Shown piece after piece: positions 35,866-37,524 of a DNA stretch of 38,876 bases. The position numbers and the translations under genes are program-made. Numbering within the stretch: the stretch's first letter is position 1; each line of letters begins with the position of its first letter. Source of the stretch: an uncultured Bacilli bacterium (lineage in GTDB: Bacteria > Bacillota_I > Bacilli_A > RFN20 > CAG-826); assembly GCA_944336335.1 (NCBI GenBank), contig CALVLC010000013.1, positions 1-38,876 of the forward strand, given 5' to 3'. The notes beneath the pieces are model-generated. The model saw only the letters and a list, made by a program, of their open reading frames with translations. It made no database searches and was not told where the DNA came from.

Positions 35866-35897
35866 AAGAGAGTTTCTTCAATGAAGCTCTCTTTTTT
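35866..35897 (+). terminator. Terminator of the MarR/exporter operon
   Basis: AAGAGAG (35866-35872) pairs with CTCTCTT (35887-35893), with an inner CTTC-AAT-GAAG hairpin, and a six-T run ends at 35897. Confidence 0.85.
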
Positions 35898-35909: not shown

Positions 35910-36070
35910 AAAACTCGCTAGGAAGAATGTACACCTATAAGCAAAAACTCCCTTGGAAAAGTGTAATATATAAGTAAAAACTCCATTGGAAAAATGTAAT
36001 ATAAATGTAAAAACTCGCTAGGAAAAGTGTAAAATCTTGTTTAAAACTCCCTTGGAAAAGTGTAATATAA
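35910..36070 (+). repeat. Five 33-34 bp tandem repeats before an AAA/DUF4143 gene
   Basis: Five units start at 35910, 35944, 35977, 36010 and 36043 (spacing 34, 33, 33, 33). Each opens with AAAACTC, then (G/C)(C)(T)(A/T)GG or CATTGG, then AA(A/G)A(A/G)TGTA, followed by about 11 less conserved AT-rich bases (often ATATAA). Units 2 and 5 share CCCTTGGAAAAGTGTAATAT exactly, and units 1 and 4 share the GCTAGG variant, so two subtypes alternate irregularly. The array ends about 38 bp before the ATPase ATG. No promoter is obvious within it. It could be a multi-site operator or an iteron-like array. Confidence 0.85.
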
Positions 36071-36107
36071 TAAAAATTAATTTATTAAAATTTATCTAGG
36101 TGACAGA

Positions 36108-37454
36108 ATGCTAAAAAGAAAAATAACTGAAGAATTAATTAAATGGAAAACTAACGATAAAGTTAAGAAGAAAGCTTTGCTCATTAAAGGCCTTAGACAA
36201 ATAGGTAAAACTTTTATTGTTCGAGATTTCGCTCATAAATATTATAAAAATGAAATTTATATTGATTTTAAGAAGAATACCGAGTTAAAAAAAGTATTTG
36301 ATGGTGATTTCGATATCGATCGAATTATGATGGATTTATCAGCTAAAATTCCGGGCATTAGATTTAGTCCAAAAGAAACGGTTATTATTTTAGATGAAAT
36401 TCAAGAATGTGCAAATGCTAGAATGTCTATCAAATATTTTGTAGAAGATGGGCGATATGATGTTATTGCAACTGGATCTTTACTTGGAGTTCGCGGTTAT
36501 AATAAGAAAAAGGGTAAAGGAGTTCCAACAGGCTCTGAGCACATTATTTACATGAATCCATTAGATTTTGAAGAATTTTTATGGGCTAAAGGTGTGAGTG
36601 ATGCTGTTATCGATTACTTGAAAGAATGTTTTCAAAAAAGAAAGCCAGTGTCTCAAACTGTTCATGAATCTATGCTTAGATATTTTAAAGAATATATATG
36701 TGTTGGTGGTCTGCCAGAAGCTGTTAATGTATTTCTAAATACTGGAAATCTTGACCTTGTATATGAAGAACAACAGGATATTCTTGAGGAATATAAAGAC
36801 GATTTTGGAAAGCATCTTAACTCAGAGGAAAATGAAGAAATTGATAGAATTTTGTTAGCAAAAATTCTTGAAGTTTTCAATTCTATTCCAAGTCAATTAG
36901 CAAAAGAAAATAAAAAATTCCAATACAGCAAAATTAAAAAAAGTGCTCGTGCTTCGGAATATGAGAAGGCCATTCAATGGTTAGTTGATGCAGGTATTGT
37001 TTCAAAATGCTTTAATTTGACTAATCTTGATGCACCTTTAGAAGGAAATAAGATTAGTGAATGTTTTAAACTCTATATGAGAGATAGTGGTCTTTTTATT
37101 GCCATGCTTGATAAAGGCACGTCTGGTCAAGTTCTTTCTGGTAATTTAGGCATTTATAAAGGTGCAATTTTTGAAAATATAGTTGCTGATTATTTTTCGA
37201 AGATGAATAGAAAATTATATTATTTTCAGAAAGAATCAGGTTTAGAAATTGATTTTGTGACTACATATAAAGGAGAAGTAAACCTAGTTGAAGTTAAAGC
37301 GAAAACTGGTAATACTAAATCAGCTAATACTATTTTAAGTAATTATTCTTTGTATAAAGTTAAAAAATGTATCAAAATCGGCGAATATAATATTGGAGAA
37401 ACAGAAGATAAACTTACAATTCCATATTATCTCGTATTTCTTTTAAAAGAATAA
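36108..37454 (+). CDS. AAA ATPase with DUF4143 (archaeal-type AAA_14 family)
   Basis: A 448-residue protein with an N-terminal P-loop ATPase: Walker A KGLRQIGKTFI (27-37, Lys34), Walker B VIILDEIQECANA with Asp96/Glu97, sensor-like VIATGSLLG and the NPLDFEEFLWAKG motif of the family. The C-terminal DUF4143 part ends in GLEIDFV....VNLVEVKAKTG (about 386-408), which has the D-x(n)-E-x-K pattern of the PD-(D/E)XK nuclease fold. The family is abundant and often multicopy in anaerobes and archaea, and its role is unknown. It stands alone behind a tandem repeat array, with AGGTGA as weak ribosome binding site. Confidence 0.88.
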   Translation: MLKRKITEELIKWKTNDKVKKKALLIKGLRQIGKTFIVRDFAHKYYKNEIYIDFKKNTELKKVFDGDFDIDRIMMDLSAKIPGIRFSPKETVIILDEIQECANARMSIKYFVEDGRYDVIATGSLLGVRGYNKKKGKGVPTGSEHIIYMNPLDFEEFLWAKGVSDAVIDYLKECFQKRKPVSQTVHESMLRYFKEYICVGGLPEAVNVFLNTGNLDLVYEEQQDILEEYKDDFGKHLNSEENEEIDRILLAKILEVFNSIPSQLAKENKKFQYSKIKKSARASEYEKAIQWLVDAGIVSKCFNLTNLDAPLEGNKISECFKLYMRDSGLFIAMLDKGTSGQVLSGNLGIYKGAIFENIVADYFSKMNRKLYYFQKESGLEIDFVTTYKGEVNLVEVKAKTGNTKSANTILSNYSLYKVKKCIKIGEYNIGETEDKLTIPYYLVFLLKE

Positions 37455-37466
37455 CTTTAACAATAG

Positions 37467-37494
37467 AAAAAAAGGGACTTCGTGAGAAAGTCCC
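37467..37494 (-). terminator. Terminator of the PfkB-family kinase gene
   Basis: GGGACTT (37474-37480) and AAGTCCC (37488-37494) form a perfect stem. On the minus strand it is followed by seven T (complement of 37467-37473). It lies between the convergent ATPase and kinase genes. Confidence 0.88.
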
Positions 37495-37524
37495 TGAATT
37501 ATTTAAAATCAATGAAAAACTCGA

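Follow-up and report, generated by a model that had tools for sequence, protein, structure and literature searches.

A 33-bp tandem repeat array upstream of a PDC-S01 ATPase-nuclease gene and its counterparts across the protein family

PDC-S01 is a phage defense candidate in PADLOC, where it belongs to the guilt-by-embedding set. It is reported to be a fusion of an ATPase with a PD-(D/E)XK domain that ranks fourth in abundance among prokaryotic systems and is experimentally unvalidated (PMC12988326), and to be the single locus found most often in rumen genomes (PMC13356809). The former source describes PDC-S27, too, as a fusion of an ATPase with PD-(D/E)XK (PMC12988326). For PDC-S01, we found no mention of a cis-acting array, of a private operator, or of a code that links residues to bases, and no report that links DUF4143, COG1373, AAA_14, or DUF234 to repeats; as the search covered open-licence full text, this absence is weak evidence. 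The term SNaCT, considered as the name of a related class, proved to be unrelated. Here, we describe an array of tandem 33-bp repeats directly upstream of a PDC-S01 gene in a 38,876-nucleotide stretch of DNA from an uncultured Bacilli bacterium (GenBank assembly GCA_944336335.1, contig CALVLC010000013.1, positions 1 to 38,876, forward strand; hereafter the window), and we compare it with the upstream regions of relatives of the encoded protein.

Tandem arrays upstream of PDC-S01 genes

The window array (35910-36064) consists of five 22-bp cores at spacings of 34, 33, 33, and 33 bp, separated by tails of 11-12 bp. Tandem Repeats Finder assigns it a period of 33, 4.8 copies, and a score of 178. 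Its lag score equals 52.5, versus a maximum of 16 among 1,090 dinucleotide-preserving shuffles of upstream regions. An earlier sequence-only reading of this locus had described five units at 33- to 34-bp spacing, each with a 22-bp core and a variable 11-bp tail, and both the core starts and Tandem Repeats Finder bear this out. The same reading had distinguished two sequence subtypes (GCTAGG and CCCTTGG, plus one CCATTGG). The main difference lies at core position 8, where the family as a whole has either C or G, and the variants are therefore ordinary degeneracy. When the 2.0-Mb genome was searched with the core at up to three mismatches, no other array and no perfect copy elsewhere was found, and the three leftover three-mismatch matches approximate the number obtained with a reversed control pattern. 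The repeat is thus not scattered across the genome, an outcome that would have refuted the earlier reading, which places its target in cis; a dispersed regulon can be discarded, as the core forms no second array.

Relatives were collected with the window protein in 26 congeneric genomes and with a three-protein alignment in GTDB genomes. This resulted in 110 loci, picked by protein alone, from Bacilli, Lachnospiraceae, Treponema, Fibrobacter, Bacteroidales, and others; archaeal genomes lay outside the sample. Arrays were called at a lag score of at least 16 in 200-bp upstream regions, 109 of which are distinct, with downstream regions, intragenic regions, and the 1,090 shuffles as controls. 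At this threshold, 72.5% of the 109 relatives carry an upstream tandem array, compared to 2.9% of downstream regions, 0% of intragenic regions, and 0.09% of shuffles. The period is 32 or 33 bp in every one of the 79 positive upstream arrays. For 264 other genes in the same loci, 3.8% of the upstream regions reached the threshold. Four of these ten positives precede further DUF4143 genes according to Pfam, and therefore the array signal picked up family members blind. Having correctly flagged these four, the array can serve as an annotation signature.

The close-family core has the consensus AAAA-S-TC-S-CTTGAAAAAGT-K. At least two cores are present in 78 of 83 close-family loci, with two to six units per locus, and 158 of 168 core spacings among these close relatives are 32 or 33 bp. 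The start codon follows the end of the last core by 2-86 bp. Three units also precede L164 once its start codon is corrected. To judge from these comparisons, the array is a general property of the family and not a local oddity, and arrays of the same period precede orthologues across phyla, where their absence would have refuted the earlier reading.

Units of a different build occur on some branches. In L131, on a Fusobacterium animalis plasmid, and in L025, the units are clear inverted repeats (ATGTGAGTATAATCACAT and TCACAATTATACGCCGTATAAATGTGA, respectively), which suggests dimeric reading on these branches. In L028-L030, a clade within one genus, the core half-sites lie 2 bp further apart (CTTGAAATTTAGTG versus CTTGAAAAAGTG). 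A 20-bp tandem repeat, TCCGCCACCGGTTACAACTT, adjoins a single array-like core in L016 (1391-1438).

The window genome itself contains seven DUF4143 places, with six genes intact. Five of these six have an upstream tandem array, and the unit differs in each; L014, the sixth, has no upstream tandem array. The periods are 33 bp for the window gene, 32 bp for L012, 31 bp for L013, and 23/46 bp for L010 and L011. The 23/46-bp arrays, found upstream of L010, L011, L151, L153, L160, and L161, mark a separate DUF4143 clade (support, 100) with unrelated units.

Covariation between protein residues and unit bases

The averaged units of 69 nonredundant loci were set against the protein columns, and unit distance was found to track protein distance (Mantel r, 0.34; maximum of 2,000 permutations, 0.17). 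In an all-pairs scan, the top residue-base pair was residue 402 and unit base 5 (Z, 10.4). N402 accompanies C or G at base 5 in 47 of 48 loci, K402 or R402 accompanies T in 19 of 19, and Q402 accompanies A in L064 and L067. The rule holds in 67 of 68 loci, and the table (47/1/0/20) gives a Fisher value of 3e-16, uncorrected for ancestry. When the tested columns are excluded from the protein tree, residue 402 and base 5 each change seven times on it, and the supported independent pairs all agree, with 0 against (sign test p, 0.03). Residue and base change together even between proteins that are 84-85% identical (Q with A, R with T).

The pairing extends beyond the discovery set, where 14 of 15 sequences with a rule residue (N, K, or R) follow it. 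Here, N is found with C or G in L022, L027-L032, L045, and L168, and K or R with T in L026, L034, L132, L166, and L167; the units of more distant members were aligned by eye. A second pair links residue 281 to base 20, with R accompanying G and T or S accompanying T in 64 of 69 loci (table 35/2/3/29). Residue 402 lies five residues past the catalytic K397, and residue 281 stands at the start of the winged-helix recognition helix. We infer that each unit is read by two domains, at points about 15 bp from each other, and the covariation points to DNA reading by the PD-(D/E)XK domain itself. It is very probable that the array is a family trait read by the family's own protein. The comparative evidence likewise supports the earlier proposal that the repeats form a phased multi-site array for protein binding, connected with the ATPase.

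The ATPase-nuclease gene, its candidate promoter, and its insertion site

The gene behind the array and the other features of the locus are listed in Table 1. Pfam detects AAA_14 (110.5 bits) and DUF4143 (87 bits) in the window protein, both above the gathering score, and the PADLOC PDC-S01 profiles match it full-length (E, 2.9e-144; residues 1-447 on profile positions 1-433/439). Its AlphaFold model has a mean predicted local distance difference test (pLDDT) score of 93.8. In structure comparison, residues 1-335 resemble the archaeal ATPases 2qen and 2fna (Z, 16.1 and 15.4) and also match CED-4 and plant NLRs (Z, about 13), and Foldseek adds a match to the origin-bound Cdc6/Orc1 2qby. Residues 336-448 alone (pLDDT, 85.7) match the folds of VRR_NUC, McrC, EndoMS, Can2, Hjc, FokI, and DdmD. 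Almost all of these fold matches are PD-(D/E)XK nucleases at Z scores of 6-8, which are weak if taken alone; the assignment is made because the matches are uniform and agree with the E356/D382/E395/K397 pattern. The catalytic and Walker residues are kept in 96-100% of the 110 proteins. In the model, the window protein is an Orc/STAND-like AAA+ ATPase that carries a winged helix and, at its C terminus, an intact PD-(D/E)XK nuclease. Fold and conserved residues both favor the nuclease-like C terminus that had been proposed from the sequence. An anti-phage function of the gene appears plausible. No support was found for the idea of iterons at a replication origin: the protein adjoining the array has no Rep-type domain in Pfam, and the arrays of the family sit at chromosomal promoters.

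Table 1. Features of the array-gene module in the window
Feature	Position	Strand	Basis
Terminator-like hairpin of the upstream ABC transporter operon, left module edge	35866..35893	+	Congeners: single terminator, then PfkB
Array unit 1 core AAAACTCGCTAGGAAGAATGTA	35910..35931	+	
Array unit 2 core AAAACTCCCTTGGAAAAGTGTA	35944..35965	+	
Array unit 3 core AAAACTCCATTGGAAAAATGTA	35977..35998	+	
Array unit 4 core AAAACTCGCTAGGAAAAGTGTA	36010..36031	+	
Array unit 5 core AAAACTCCCTTGGAAAAGTGTA, sequence identical to unit 2	36043..36064	+	
Candidate -10 box TATAAT, directly after last core	36066..36071	+	Sequence; tentative
AGGTGA, resembling a ribosome-binding site	36098..36103	+	Sequence
AAA_14-DUF4143 gene, 448 amino acids, PADLOC PDC-S01	36108..37454	+	Pfam, PADLOC
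AAA_14 domain, residues 21-158, Walker A K34, Walker B D96/E97	36168..36581	+	Pfam, conservation
Winged-helix region, residues 247-324, recognition helix 282-294	36846..37079	+	Model, covariation
Residue 281 codon	36948-36950	+	Covariation
PD-(D/E)XK nuclease domain, residues 336-448, E356, D382, E395, K397	37113..37451	+	Model, fold search
Residue 402 codon	37311-37313	+	Covariation
Second terminator-like hairpin, between ATPase gene and PfkB	37473..37496	.	Sequence

Across the family, promoter motifs lie at a fixed register relative to the last core. TAnnTTTG is the Bacteroidota promoter consensus, and TTGAAA and TATAAT are of the type of the sigma-70 consensus elements. In 11 of 20 Bacteroidota loci, the first base of TAnnTTTG lies at -2/-1 relative to the end of the last core, and further copies stand near the same register on earlier units. 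In Bacillota-type loci, TATAAT starts +9/+10 past the last core in 22 of 49 loci, and therefore the core's own TTGAAA forms the -35 box at a spacing of 16-17 bp. With the promoter built into the array in this way, occupancy of the last unit would block it.

In three congeners, the ABC transporter gene (86-87% identical) directly adjoins PfkB (90%), with 72-81 bp and one terminator in between. At the same junction in the window lie a terminator, the array, the gene, and a second terminator. Compared with the three congeners, the array-gene module is cleanly inserted between two neighboring genes, and since the site of the congeners is empty, array and gene came or went together. Two further loci are likely relics of lost modules. 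The first (L178, 8742-8791, in G100:C3) has a two-unit array with no gene within about 7 kb and a second, 34-bp array alongside, and in the second (the start of L179, in G034:C4), one unit precedes a gene of which just the first codons are left. Relatives appear to be mostly lone modules with some self-clustering: their 113 nearest neighbors include five PDC-S01, three PDC-S27, and a few restriction-modification genes, and the remainder are mostly housekeeping-like.

A set of 2.9 million viral contigs yielded one two-unit match and 12 protein relatives. A phage-borne array was rejected, as these contigs hold almost none, and so was a phage-encoded family, for which the matches occur only in 'Bacteriophage sp.' contigs from faecal samples.

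Readings of the array and comparison with known systems

We estimate a probability of roughly 70% that negative autoregulation is the main role of the array. In this proposal, the array would be the private operator of the gene directly 3' of it, and the ATPase-nuclease would bind each 33-bp unit through two reading heads. One head, a loop of the PD-(D/E)XK domain (residue 402), would touch base 5; the other, the recognition helix of the winged helix (residue 281), would touch base 20. As the units are three helical turns apart, the protein may assemble cooperatively, in an ATP-dependent manner, on roughly one face of the DNA. With a promoter inside the last units, occupancy would block RNA polymerase and keep a potentially dangerous nuclease low. 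Derepression or activation would then follow once the protein is stripped off or titrated away, be it by infection or by some other event.

Several observations weigh against autoregulation or loosen its support. A consensus scan of the window gave no good -35 box, making the promoter overlap tentative there. An active nuclease on its own array should be dangerous unless the ATP state or access to Mg2+ controls cutting. The plasmid relative L130 breaks the residue 402 rule, with R402 and G at the best-guess base 5, and Q in L133 and Y in L024 lie outside it. Residue 402 and base 5 were picked from an all-pairs scan, so their nominal p-values are optimistic; the sequences outside the discovery set partly answer this selection bias, but many of them are mutually related. 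The pairing of residue 281 with base 20 is not significant by independent pairs, of which there are too few.

The array might be part of the effector itself and more than its operator. An NLR-like ATPase-nuclease would be inactive while it reads its private DNA next to its own gene, through reading heads in both the nuclease domain and the winged helix, and disturbance of this DNA during infection would trigger it. We consider this unlikely. If true, PDC-S01 and PDC-S27 would form one large class with self-referential DNA tripwires.

In a related and rather improbable scenario, the array would be an assembly or holding platform, in effect a DNA antidote: the parked protein is inactive, its release or a change in occupancy in infection activates the nuclease, and autoregulation is a by-product. 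The intact nuclease residues and the covariation of the nuclease domain itself with an array base fit this idea, as does the fold, whose closest matches (archaeal ATPases, CED-4/NLRs, and Cdc6/Orc1) undergo assembly governed by nucleotide state. Moreover, no tandem direct array was found in those sampled lineages whose E-x-K motif is broken. However, two to six sites per genome would hold few molecules only, and the promoter register is already explained more simply. In addition, several nuclease-dead relatives (L014, L159, and L163) have repeated palindromes of their own close to the start, as judged by eye, for example TTTGGAAAAATTC...GAATTTTTCCAAA, which is present twice in L014. These promoter palindromes fit regulation better, and on their account we claim for nuclease-dead relatives the lack of a tandem direct array, not that of an operator.

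It is very unlikely that the array is the recognition end of a mobile unit, with the ATPase-nuclease moving by acting on its own repeats in a TnsA/TnsC- or IstB-like manner. The combination of PD-(D/E)XK and AAA+ is reminiscent of TnsA and TnsC, relatives that are 60-70% identical occur in distant phyla, orphan array relics exist, and the empty site in the three congeners is clean. Nevertheless, the right end of the window module has no array or inverted copy, neither a partner transposase nor a target-site duplication was seen, and recombination could equally replace an intergenic stretch. Mobility also leaves the promoter register unexplained.

A separate host regulator, rather than the ATPase, is a very improbable reader. 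A precedent exists in RptR, a dedicated repressor on three direct repeats at a defense-island promoter (PMC12255303). Yet unit bases covary with ATPase residues across phyla with unrelated host regulators, and units differ between paralogues of the same genome. Directly behind the window array lies the ATPase gene alone, with no small repressor gene, and the upstream neighbors are ABC transporter genes. Finally, it is barely credible that the array is a neutral minisatellite, or a repeat that acts as RNA or is of CRISPR type: slippage readily makes tandem repeats, but period and unit are conserved across phyla and the covariation contradicts neutrality too, and the promoter at or after the last units leaves most of the array untranscribed. 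The tails are too short for CRISPR spacers, although no search aimed at cas genes was made. A known RNA element was rejected because Rfam gave no significant match and RNA structure is no stronger than in shuffles (z, -0.67).

PDC-S01 is reported to be among the most abundant prokaryotic defense candidates. If each member has a cognate DNA site whose bases are predicted by protein residues, the arrays would give a direct experimental handle in the form of a defined ligand, predicted specificity-swap mutants, a reportable promoter, and a control mutant for phage assays.

The nearest regulatory parallel that we found is RptR, a local repressor on tandem direct repeats over a defense-gene promoter (PMC12255303). 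It differs in being a separate protein, a small homodimer, and its repeats are 9 bp long with a 6-bp palindrome inside, whereas PDC-S01 arrays have 33-bp units of locus-specific sequence and are likely read by the effector candidate itself. The archaeal Orc1/Cdc6 proteins share AAA+ and winged-helix domains with the window protein. Orc1/Cdc6 initiator genes also adjoin repeated binding sites with paralogue-specific sequence. However, they are without PD-(D/E)XK, and PDC-S01 arrays overlap a promoter, with nothing to indicate replication. MalT-type STAND regulators undergo ATP-dependent assembly on tandem direct repeats at promoters. In contrast to the window protein, MalT has no nuclease domain and activates other operons, whereas the window array fronts its own gene only. 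In structure, the best matches to the window protein are the archaeal ATPases SSO1545 and PAB2304 (Z, about 15-16). PDC-S27 (ATPase_2-DUF234), with profile identity established for three of the sampled genes, resembles PDC-S01 in having upstream repeats as well. These were found in 8 of 10 sampled genes (L181-L191, from G000 and its taxonomic family), compared to 3.7% of shuffles. The PDC-S27 repeats differ in their 15-bp period and in their short, often palindromic-looking units, such as TAACAACGTAGTTAT, which occurs twice in L186.
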